IMG/VR virus record: IMGVR_UViG_3300047558_000057
Location: 1 to 37,357 of that record
Direction: 5' to 3' (one strand)
Source: a virus
Length of the DNA: 37,357 nucleotides
Positions 25,478 through 28,910 of the stretch are shown piece after piece. A program made the translations under genes and the position numbers. Numbering within the stretch: the first letter of the stretch is position 1; every line of letters starts with the position of its first letter. The notes under the pieces are model-generated. The model saw nothing but the letters and a program-made list of their open reading frames with translations, ran no database searches and was not told the origin of the DNA.

Positions 25478-26128
25478 ATGGCAACCTATTTAGATATTGT
25501 CAACAACGTGATGAAGAGGCTCCGTGAGCCTACAGTTACGTCTGTGAACGACAATAAGTATTCTTCTCTCATTGCTGTCTTGGTGAATGACAGTAAGCGT
25601 GAGATTGAAGACGCTTATGATTGGAATGCTCTTGCTACTACCTTGACAGCTAACACCACTGAAGATGTGTTTAACTATGTCTTGGTTGGCTCAGGTACTC
25701 GTTTCCGTGTGATTGATGTCTTCAATGACAGTAATGACTTCCAAATGCGTTATGCCCCTACGCACTGGATGAACCGTCAGTTCACTACTACTAACACTCA
25801 AAAAGCTTCCCCTACGTACTACAACTTTAACGGTGTAGACGCTAACGGTGATACTCAAGTAGACATCTACCCTATTCCAGATCAAGCCTACGACCTACGT
25901 TTCAACCTTACAGTTCCACAAGCTGATTTGGTTGCTGACAATGATCGTATCTTGGTTCCTGACCATTTGGTTGCTATGTTGACTTACGCTAAAGCTATTG
26001 CTGAGCGTGGTGAAGATAGTGGTAATTTGTCTTCTGAAGCTTACGCTTTGTTCAAGAATGCTTTGGCTAACGCTGTAGCTATCGAGCGTAACCACTACGA
26101 AGAAGAAATGAACTGGGTTGCTCCATAA
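25478..26128 (+). CDS. Tail tubular/head-tail adaptor protein (gp11/P22 gp4-like)
   Basis: The protein has 216 residues: 'ATYLDIVNNVMKRLREPTVT', then 'VNDSKREIEDAYDWNAL', 'FQMRYAPTHWMN', 'QVDIYPIPDQAYDLRFNLTV' and a helical end. This layout is typical of the adaptor ring below the portal in short-tailed phages. It is followed two bases later by an HNH gene that separates it from the tail-nozzle gene, its normal neighbour. Confidence 0.83.
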   Translation: MATYLDIVNNVMKRLREPTVTSVNDNKYSSLIAVLVNDSKREIEDAYDWNALATTLTANTTEDVFNYVLVGSGTRFRVIDVFNDSNDFQMRYAPTHWMNRQFTTTNTQKASPTYYNFNGVDANGDTQVDIYPIPDQAYDLRFNLTVPQADLVADNDRILVPDHLVAMLTYAKAIAERGEDSGNLSSEAYALFKNALANAVAIERNHYEEEMNWVAP

Positions 26129-26130
26129 CT

Positions 26131-26604
26131 ATGGCTGAGCAATTACTCACCTCTTCTATTGCTGCTCCGGGCTTTAAGCTTGTGTGTAGCACCTGTAAAG
26201 AAGAAAAAGATGTTTCTGCTTTTCACAAAGCCGGGAATAAAAAGAGAGGGTATCAGTTTAGCTGTATTGCTTGTAGGAAAAAGGTAAAAGAAAAACAACA
26301 GGCCAGTATGTCACCTGAGGACTGGTTGTTACTGAACCGTAAATATTGGTTAAAATCGCAGTATGGGATCTCATTAAATGATTATAATACCATGCTCAAA
26401 CAGCAAAACCACAGTTGTGCTATCTGCAAAACAGATGAGACTGATGTATTTAAGCAGGTTCTTTATGTAGACCACTGCCACACAACTGGAAAAATAAGAG
26501 GTCTTTTATGTATGCAATGTAACGCAGGATTAGGTAAATTTAAAGATTCTTTGGATATGTTAGAAGCTGCTAAAGATTACTTGAGAAAGGCTAAAGATGT
26601 CTGA
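26131..26604 (+). CDS. HNH endonuclease (VII-like) inserted at the 5' end of a tail gene
   Basis: The protein has 157 residues. Its first 15 ('MAEQLLTSSIAAPGF') match the first 15 of the downstream tail protein ('MSEQLLAASIAAPGF') at 12 positions, then sequence identity ends. The rest has zinc knuckles ('CSTCKEEK', 'CIACRKK'), 'SCAICKTDE', the core 'YVDHCHTTGKIRGLLCMQCN' and 'GLGKFKDSLDMLEAAKDYL'. Presumably the gene entered the tail gene after its start region and kept the original start codon. There is no clear ribosome site, as expected for the old tail start. It overlaps the tail gene by 8 bases. Confidence 0.88.
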   Translation: MAEQLLTSSIAAPGFKLVCSTCKEEKDVSAFHKAGNKKRGYQFSCIACRKKVKEKQQASMSPEDWLLLNRKYWLKSQYGISLNDYNTMLKQQNHSCAICKTDETDVFKQVLYVDHCHTTGKIRGLLCMQCNAGLGKFKDSLDMLEAAKDYLRKAKDV

Positions 26605-28135
26605 GCAATTATTAGCTGCTTCGATAGCTGCCCCCGGTTTTCAAGGATTGAATACTCAAGACTCTTCCGTGGCTCTTGAGAATGGTTACGCCACTATTGC
26701 TTCCAACTGTGTCATTGACAAGTTTGGTCGTATTGGTGCTCGTAAAGGATGGCTACCTAAGCACTCAACCAATGCTGATTTGAGCATTGCTAACGTAAAA
26801 GCTATCGGTGAATTGATCGGTAATGACGGTACATCTTACATCATTGCAGCAGGTAACAACTGTATCTTTAAGCTAAGTGGTTCTACACTGACTAAGCTCA
26901 CTTATGGTGGTGGTGGTTCAGCTCCTACGATCACCGGCGACCATTGGCAACTAGCTCCTTTGAATGGTGTTTTGTATCTGTATCAAGAAGGACACGATCC
27001 TCTGGTATTTGATCCAGCAGTATCTACAACTACATTCAAGCGTGTATCAGAGAAGACAGGTTATCTAGGTACGGCTCAGTTGAGCAACTGTGCTATTAGC
27101 GCCTATGGTCGTACATGGACAGCCAGCACAACTACAGACAAGAACACAATTCAGTTCTCTGATCTCTTAGCTGGTCATGTTTTGACTACAGGTACAGCAG
27201 GTACTCTGAATGTCTCTCAGATCTGGCCTTATGGTGCAGATGAGATCACTGCTTTGGCTGCTCATAACCATCAGTTGTTCATCTTTGGTCGTCGTCAGAT
27301 CTTGATTTACACAGGTGCTGAAGATCCTTCAACTATGCGTCTGTACGACACAATTAGCGGTATTGGCTGCTGTGCTCGTGACTCAGTTGTAAACACAGGC
27401 ACCGATGTCTATTTCCTGTCTGATTCAGGTGTACGCTCCCTTGCTCGTACTATTCAAGAAAAGTCAGCTCCTATGCGAGACATTAGCGCTAACGTGCGTG
27501 ATGATCTTGTCTATGACTTGAGCTTGGAGACACTGAAAGAGATCAAGGCTTGTTACTCAGATAAGAATGCTTTCTATCTCCTAAGCTTTCCTACATCGTC
27601 TACTACTTATTGTTTTGATACTCGTCAGACATTACAGAACGGTGCTCAACGGGTAACTACATGGTCTATTGCTCCCAGAGCTATGTTCTCTAACCGAGCT
27701 AAAGAGACTTTGTTGGGCTTTGCTGGCTATGTTGGCTACTACACTGGTAACTTGGACAACATAGCTAACTACCGCTTCAAGTACTACACTAACTACTTTG
27801 ACTTAGGTTCCCCTAATCAGATTAAGGTGTTAAAAAAAGTAGGATTTACTATCATTGGTGGGAATACTGCTGATGTAGTAATTAAGTATGGATTTGATTA
27901 CTCAAACAGTTATAATAGTGAAACTATCACATTAGGTACTTCAACTCCTGCTGAGTACGGCATTGCTGAATACAACATTGCTCAGTACACAGCTGGTGTT
28001 ATCTTTGACAATCAGAAGATTCATGCTGGTGGTGCAGGTAATGTGCTTCAGTTGGGCTTAGAGGCTGTTATCAGTTCTTTTGAGTTATCAGTTCAAAAAT
28101 TAGACGTATATTGCAAGTCTGGAAGGATTAATTAA
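26597..28135 (+). CDS. Tail tubular/nozzle protein (gp12/P22 gp10-like)
   Basis: The protein has 512 residues, beta-rich, with 'NTQDSSVALENGYATIASNC', 'VIDKFGRIGARKGW', 'LPLNG'-like propeller segments, 'WPYGADEITALAAHNHQLFI', 'FGRRQILIYTGAEDPSTM', and 'GCCARDSVVNTGTDVYFLSD'. This is the form of podoviral tail hub or nozzle proteins that close the tail tube. The start is at an ATG overlapping the HNH stop (AAAGATG, with GAGAAAGG upstream). The first 15 codons are a diverged duplicate of the HNH start; see findings. Confidence 0.85.
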   Translation: MSEQLLAASIAAPGFQGLNTQDSSVALENGYATIASNCVIDKFGRIGARKGWLPKHSTNADLSIANVKAIGELIGNDGTSYIIAAGNNCIFKLSGSTLTKLTYGGGGSAPTITGDHWQLAPLNGVLYLYQEGHDPLVFDPAVSTTTFKRVSEKTGYLGTAQLSNCAISAYGRTWTASTTTDKNTIQFSDLLAGHVLTTGTAGTLNVSQIWPYGADEITALAAHNHQLFIFGRRQILIYTGAEDPSTMRLYDTISGIGCCARDSVVNTGTDVYFLSDSGVRSLARTIQEKSAPMRDISANVRDDLVYDLSLETLKEIKACYSDKNAFYLLSFPTSSTTYCFDTRQTLQNGAQRVTTWSIAPRAMFSNRAKETLLGFAGYVGYYTGNLDNIANYRFKYYTNYFDLGSPNQIKVLKKVGFTIIGGNTADVVIKYGFDYSNSYNSETITLGTSTPAEYGIAEYNIAQYTAGVIFDNQKIHAGGAGNVLQLGLEAVISSFELSVQKLDVYCKSGRIN

Positions 28136-28137
28136 TT

Positions 28138-28677
28138 ATGAGTAACCTCTCATATCTTCCAGCAGCTCAAAGTAAGGAATGTCCTGTCTGTAAGACTGTT
28201 AAACTATTTACAGAATTTAACAATAATAAATCAGCAAAAGACGGAAAACAGCGACTATGTCGACCTTGCGATAATGTTCGTTTAAAAGCAAACAGAAAAG
28301 CCCGTGAAAATGAGTATCGTGAGTATGAAAAAGAATATAGAAAAAGTAAATTTAACGATATGGAGTTTCGACTTCAAGGTCTTTTAAATGCCTCCAGAGC
28401 AAGAGCACGGCAAAAGAATAGAGAACATTCTATAACAAAGCAGGATCTTTACGATTTATATCCTTTAGATGGTAAATGTCCTGTGTTTGGTTTTGATTTG
28501 GAATGGAACGGGGCAGGATTTAGAGAAACAAGCCCTTCTATAGACCGTATTGATTCTTCTAAAGGCTATACAAAAGATAATGTTCAAATCATCTCGTGGA
28601 AAGCAAATAGATTAAAATCTTACGCAACGGTTGAAGATTTAGAAGCTGTTCTAGCTTACATGAAACAAGGAGATTAA
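28138..28677 (+). CDS. HNH homing-type endonuclease, second family
   Basis: The protein has 179 residues. N-terminal zinc knuckle 'CPVCKTVKLFTEF' and 'CRPCDN' come first. A charged helical linker follows, then 'GKCPVFGFDLEWNG' and the signature 'SPSIDRIDSSKGYTKDNVQI' with 'ISWKANRLKSYATVEDLEA'. That group is distinct from the VII-like copies. It sits between the tail nozzle gene and a fibre-like gene whose usual ATG has been replaced by TTG. AT-rich base composition sets it apart from the tail genes around it. Confidence 0.86.
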   Translation: MSNLSYLPAAQSKECPVCKTVKLFTEFNNNKSAKDGKQRLCRPCDNVRLKANRKARENEYREYEKEYRKSKFNDMEFRLQGLLNASRARARQKNREHSITKQDLYDLYPLDGKCPVFGFDLEWNGAGFRETSPSIDRIDSSKGYTKDNVQIISWKANRLKSYATVEDLEAVLAYMKQGD

Positions 28678-28679
28678 TT

Positions 28680-28910
28680 TTGGGAAATTACGTAAAAAGT
28701 ACAGACTTTGCAGCTAAGGATTCGTTATCGACAGGTAACCCTGCAAAGCTAGTCAAAGGTGCTGAGATCGGTACTGAGTTTGATGCTATTGAAGCTGCTG
28801 TTAACTCTAAGGCTGACTTGAATGGCCCTGCTTTGACAGGTACAGCTACAGCAGTTAACTTAACTGTATCAGGTACATTTTCAGCTACTGTCGATGGCGG
28901 AGCCTATTAA
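28680..28910 (+). CDS. Fibre-like structural protein with TTG start
   Basis: The protein has 76 residues; the N-terminus 'GNYVKSTDFAAKDSLSTGNP' with 'LVKGAEIGTEFDAIEAAV' is the usual anchor sequence of phage tail-fibre proteins, where it normally starts with ATG. Here TTG at 28680 has an AGGAG site 7 bases upstream inside the HNH gene. It ends '...FSATVDGGAY', like the fibre at 22152 ('...SINGGTY'). It is probably a short fibre base or a trimmed fibre. Confidence 0.78.
   Translation: MGNYVKSTDFAAKDSLSTGNPAKLVKGAEIGTEFDAIEAAVNSKADLNGPALTGTATAVNLTVSGTFSATVDGGAY

Follow-up and report, generated by a model that had tools for sequence, protein, structure and literature searches.

How an endonuclease and a virion protein came to share a beginning is the question raised by the window analysed here, a complete IMG/VR record of 37,357 bases. 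Its genome appears podovirus-like, with identifiable terminase, portal, major head protein, DNA polymerase and primase/helicase, and belongs to a family of uncultured bacterial viruses from water. Searches turned up no cultured phage closely related to it: its nearest DNA polymerases in culture, at 39–49% identity, come from Pelagibacter and Roseobacter phages. Behind the tail adaptor-like gene, an HNH gene and a tail nozzle gene share 8 nt in a stop/start overlap, and their products begin with MAEQLLTSSIAAPGF (HNH) and MSEQLLAASIAAPGF (nozzle). Our recount agrees with the first-pass annotation that 12 of these 15 residues are the same, that the underlying 45-base stretches match at 34 positions, that the codons for Leu6, Ser9, Ile10, Ala12, Pro13 and Gly14 differ silently, and that the proteins share nothing past residue 15. 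By our own rough estimate, which assumes uniform composition, the chance of such a residue match is ~1e-13.

The HNH gene product is an Endonuclease_7 protein (Pfam PF02945, E = 8e-25) that also matches PHROG endonuclease VII (E = 5e-41) and, in PDB profile searches, Hpy99I (7e-12) and T4 endonuclease VII (4e-6). Its zinc-ribbon HNH core, DHCH...CxxCN, is invariant in 16 relatives and, judging by a dN of 0.08 and a dS of 1.49 between L022 and L037, the HNH body is under purifying selection. A search of the PDB with the nozzle sequence returned no match; its predicted fold (pLDDT 80) matches the nozzle proteins P22 gp10 and T7 gp12 (E to 4e-21, TM 0.6–0.7), which favours the tail-nozzle identity first proposed from the sequence, and by analogy with T7 and P22 the gene is presumably essential.

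Relatives lacking the HNH gene reveal which start is the original. Among 80 nozzle loci fetched, L001–L005 are closest to the window (nozzle 91–92% identical; adaptor 89–94% identical in amino acids). In these loci the adaptor stop is directly followed by a single nozzle start encoding MAEQLLTSSIAAPGF, so that their first 15 nozzle residues equal the window HNH copy letter for letter. Thus, the start of the HNH gene (copy 1) is the original nozzle start and that of the present nozzle gene (copy 2) is a replacement. The first-pass annotation had proposed that the HNH gene kept the nozzle start and had predicted HNH-less relatives with a single start matching one copy; both proposals hold. The probability that the two N-termini represent a common leader peptide, or that the duplication is an assembly artefact, is negligible. 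HNH-less relatives carry a single copy, and these empty sites also exclude an unrelated leader common to both proteins and the case in which neither sequence occurs in such relatives. Moreover, the duplicated arrangement recurs on independent contigs from many metagenomes and hence is not an assembly error; we found no point in favour of either idea. Native-like leaders of the copy 1 type are also present in L022, L037, L083 and L090, and a GAGAAAGG/AAGAAAGG-like sequence also precedes the nozzle start in L022 and L037.

Table 1. Features of the window at the adaptor/HNH/nozzle locus.
Feature	Coordinates	Strand	Evidence
Tail adaptor-like gene (left homology flank, upstream of insertion)	25478..26128	+	PHROG tail protein phrog_10775, E = 3e-13
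HNH / endonuclease VII-like gene with captured leader	26131..26604	+	157 aa; PF02945, PHROG
Copy 1: captured original nozzle start, HNH codons 1–16	26131..26178	+	L001–L005 nozzle aa 1–15
GAGAAAGG, likely new nozzle ribosome-binding site within the HNH gene 3' end	26583..26590	+	Sequence; putative function
Copy 2: recoded nozzle codons 1–18, carried with HNH	26597..26650	+	Comparison with L003
Tail nozzle gene, interrupted and restored target	26597..28135	+	512 aa; AlphaFold model
Putative insertion/cleavage point, nozzle nt 52–55 (codon 18)	26648..26651	.	Change points at nt 51–57 in most occupied/empty pairs with a close relative

Insertion of an HNH gene just past the nozzle start region, as the first-pass annotation had it, is seen many times over. 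HNH relatives were gathered by HNH-based searches, in which an alignment query recovered the closest ones that strict peptide patterns had missed. The same HNH family lies at the same adaptor/nozzle junction in ~20 further loci from many lineages, always at that junction, of which it is a long-standing resident; 28 distinct loci were occupied and 265 empty in this similarity-selected sample. The left edge of the insert is variable, falling after 1, 3, 13, 16 or 18 codons of nozzle sequence. The captured leader comprises 16 codons in the window, L022 and L037 and 18 in L083 and L089, while the native match ends after ~13 codons in L085 and L090, only 3 native codons are kept in L150, L155 and L164, and L142, L143, L146 and L147 keep the start codon alone. 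In the HNH-core tree, long-leader forms are found in two distinct clades, each neighboured by relatives with short or no capture, so the simplest reading is that long capture arose at least twice. No comparable captured leader was found among 53 HNH/next-gene pairs at other sites.

One explanation for the persistence of the two copies is that the captured N-terminus is functional in the HNH protein, for example by tagging it for virion packaging or by improving translation initiation, the copies being kept alike by selection for that role. The leader does supply the native ribosome-binding region and start, and the native start region (26101–26190) folds more stably as RNA than shuffles do (z −2.96), which might affect translation control. 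However, many relatives have a very short leader or none, and in L085 and L090 it ends at codon 13; the leader is also predicted to be disordered (pLDDT below 50, in a modest model with mean pLDDT 70), and its sequence follows host lineage, as expected of something passively retained. We regard a functional leader as very unlikely. Purifying selection on the HNH body together with a leader predicted to be disordered is consistent with a working enzyme bearing a tolerated passenger.

Our preferred reading, to which we assign a probability of about 0.8, is that a homing HNH element inserted near codon 18 of the essential tail nozzle gene, using that gene's start and carrying a recoded replacement for its 5' end. 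Comparisons of occupied loci with their nearest HNH-less relatives show native sequence up to the left edge, then the HNH body, then recoded nozzle codons 1–18, after which native nozzle sequence usually resumes at nt 51–57; in one example pair, 19 mismatches in nozzle nt 4–52 give way to 5 in the following 188. For the second clade, base-level comparisons drew on 67 distinct HNH-less loci. Here L090 and the empty locus L327 agree at all 68 nt compared up to nozzle nt 38, after which L090 has HNH sequence, and its copy 2 then differs from L327 at 19 positions in nt 1–52 and at none in nt 53–105. Similarly, copy 1 of L083 shows 2 mismatches in 39 to L308, whereas its copy 2 shows 16 in nt 1–54 and then 3 in the next 126. 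Base-level mosaics of the same kind were evident for L037/L065, L085/L345 and L022/L027. Such sharp mosaic junctions in near-identical flanks indicate that the gene has moved independently of the host genome.

The change point fell at nt 51–57 in 12 of the 20 HNH-family loci having a comparator. Divergent tracts were longer in L142 and L143 (to nt 84) and L146 (to nt 69), the change point was poorly placed in L089, L158, L164 and L176, and L144, L148 and L158 had no usable right boundary. The right edge in the window is less sharp, its nearest empty relative being just 86% identical downstream; the change point lies at nt 75, or at nt 52 with a broad interval when the comparator is chosen by the adaptor. 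Choosing comparators by adaptor instead of nozzle gave the same break for most loci with a close relative. Among empty nearest-neighbour pairs, 3 of 228 had a change point at nt 40–66 (LLR > 5), and two of these three involve alleles that themselves look element-derived.

The replacement start is strongly altered at the DNA level. Over nt 1–54, copy 2 of the window is 67% identical to the nearest HNH-less locus, L003, as opposed to 86% downstream, and in codons 2–18 it has 3 codons the same, 10 silent changes and 4 missense changes. For 12 occupied/empty pairs, codons 2–18 comprise 49 unchanged, 119 silent and 36 missense codons, so that 119 of 155 changed codons are silent, while codons 31–47 of the same pairs comprise 184, 17 and 3, respectively. 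The extreme case is L037, in which copies 1 and 2 differ in 13 of 15 codons with zero amino-acid changes. Nt 1–54 are strongly recoded in occupied alleles with close relatives, and such alleles may be resistant to their own enzyme. A scan for the recoded-codon pattern GCNTQD yielded 10 stretches, none a known occupied locus, and was uninformative because the Ser codon after the pattern is not of the TCN type in occupied loci.

The HNH element itself seems to bring the recoded start with it, since such a start accompanies this HNH family throughout and, where measurable, mostly stops close to codon 18. The first-pass annotation had suggested that the nozzle start was either recoded or rebuilt with a copy from another phage; a rebuilt start with mostly silent changes is what we see, while a patch from an unrelated phage does not agree with this linkage. 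In the second clade, copy 2 of L083 resembles that of L089 and copy 2 of L085 that of L090, following the HNH subclades, whereas copy 1 and the adaptor do not sort by HNH subclade within the L083–L090 group. When all seven captured loci are taken together, the HNH body correlates with copy 1 as well (Spearman 0.82), and correlations of either copy with HNH body and adaptor do not separate the copies, so the linkage of copy 2 to HNH rests on the subclades and the junctions. Copy 1 seems to follow the host phage and copy 2 to go with HNH, the linkage of copy 2 alone being clear only within subclades.

These data also bear on a simpler scenario, in which HNH is an old intergenic resident moved by ordinary recombination in its flanks, the leader extended the HNH gene at its 5' end by accident, and the divergent nozzle start is old linked sequence that arose with neither selection for recoding nor cutting. 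In several family members the leader is almost lacking and the HNH gene occupies precisely the boundary of adaptor and nozzle, as this scenario expects, and age alone could yield many silent changes. But ordinary crossovers should end anywhere in the 1.5 kb nozzle gene, while the divergence usually stops at nt 51–57, and an unrelated HNH clade at the same place is accompanied by no divergence. The scenario is, in our judgement, unlikely, though the divergence of copy 2 could partly reflect the age of element-linked sequence and not selection for recoding.

The preferred reading, a homing insertion carrying its own repair, suggests the following mechanism. Left of the insert lies the phage's own sequence, that is, the nozzle ribosome-binding region, start codon and first 1–18 codons (16 in the window), which now start the HNH gene; the insert consists of the HNH body and, through the stop/start overlap, a second version of nozzle codons 1–18. 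The tail protein can still be made because the insert carries a differently spelled replacement for the ~18 displaced codons. We infer the cleavage, mobility and immunity of the element from its sequence. The enzyme would cut uninserted nozzle genes near codon 18, and repair from an HNH-bearing copy would bring in the HNH body with the carried codons 1–18. The recipient's own nozzle start would become the HNH leader, while the carried 5' end would restore a full nozzle protein. Mostly silent recoding could block re-cutting, and it could also make copies 1 and 2 less prone to recombine with each other, an event that would remove the element. A further role of the captured leader is probably that of a left homology arm extending nearly as far as the break; its match to the recipient lineage would then be expected, and by placing homology up to the break, it would favour its own retention. 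A break at ~nt 53 followed by variable trimming of the left end would keep the right edge nearly constant while the left edge varies, which is the pattern here. We lean slightly towards the fuller proposition of a natural 5' home-and-rescue drive in phages, combining cut-site insertion, theft of the start, a recoded 5' end as both rescue and immunity, scars (candidates being L070 and L315/L317) and a leader that repeatedly evolved as a homology arm.

Several known systems resemble this arrangement in part. In fungal mitochondria, mobile ORFs carry replacement 3' ends for Glomus atp6, atp9, cox2 and nad3 and Allomyces atp6 (PMC3630166). As here, an endonuclease gene lies in an essential gene together with a diverged replacement end, and the native end adjoins and matches close relatives; there, however, it is the C-terminal end that the insert supplies anew, the native one remaining downstream and in some genes unexpressed (PMC3630166). 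In the phage element the enzyme is HNH and the replacement affects the 5' end, whose native version now serves as the endonuclease start, making the element an analogue and not a member of the fungal group. The engineered home-and-rescue drive HomeR likewise combines nuclease-driven insertion at a cut site in an essential gene with silent recoding that restores function and limits gene conversion, its recoded rescue spanning 22 or 27 codons at the cut site (PMC7968924) compared with ~18 in the phage element. HomeR is a synthetic Cas9 system of flies acting at the 3' coding end (PMC7968924), whereas the phage element is natural and acts at the 5' end.

Among phage endonucleases, the free-standing seg/mob genes of T4, a case of intronless homing, also lie between essential phage genes, and many are promoterless and use host phage transcripts; their cleavage sites are reported to be hundreds of bp away from where they insert (PMC2988022). 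In the phage element the putative cut site instead falls at the right edge of the insert, and a rescue 5' end is carried in addition. Homing endonucleases borne by introns and inteins, and one that splits a ribonucleotide reductase gene, also insert in essential genes, relying on RNA splicing, protein splicing or a split protein (PMC10448857), whereas the phage element re-encodes the displaced part. No splicing is needed at our locus because the HNH gene has its own start and stop and overlaps an intact nozzle ORF, which sets it apart from group I intron and intein endonucleases, whose host gene is restored by splicing. F-CphI, a phage homing endonuclease with an Endo VII catalytic motif, provides a case of such a motif serving homing in a phage, and the accessible part of its abstract does not mention a re-encoded target gene start (PMC6083498). 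A literature search returned no earlier phage case in which start capture is combined with a recoded rescue, which, given incomplete subscription coverage, is weak evidence of novelty.

Re-encoding what is broken would be another way for a selfish nuclease to occupy an essential gene, besides RNA or protein splicing and split genes. Its resemblance to the recoded rescue of synthetic gene drives means that the element would offer natural replicates of drive fate over time, in the form of repeated captures, variable left edges, apparent resistance alleles and loss. Target-site recoding as self-immunity is directly testable, as many occupied alleles have a near-identical empty allele. For annotation, a captured leader may be mistaken for a genuine protein domain.

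Additional variants of the locus were observed. L070 (4177–4236) is HNH-less and has a recoded nozzle start like copy 2 of L037, and L315 (1089–1148) and L317, also HNH-less, combine element-like codons 11–18 with a start that is native elsewhere; all three are candidate resistance alleles, perhaps left by loss or partial conversion. A different HNH clade occupies the adaptor/nozzle junction in L179 (HNH 3998, nozzle 4429) and L183 (HNH 755, nozzle 1186), where HNH takes the ATG position, the nozzle gene starts with GTG and recoding is absent.

The window contains a second HNH gene (28138–28677), between the nozzle gene and the next gene (28680–28910, TTG start). At this second site, non-ATG starts of the next gene occur in 13 of 21 HNH-occupied loci versus 53 of 252 empty ones, and nt 1–24 of this gene in the window share just 46% identity with the nearest empty relative, rising to 87% downstream; this may be the same trick at smaller scale. 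Short capture by the HNH gene at 28138 was considered as well, its MSN start being similar to relatives of the next gene; in L025, though, the start departs from that lineage, and short capture is a lead at most. Lastly, inserts of 52–55 nt lie between adaptor and nozzle in L034 (827–881), L063 (2627–2681), L076 (1988–2042) and L044 (3475–3526); these are partly palindromic (AGGCGGTTTCGCC) and unrelated to HNH.
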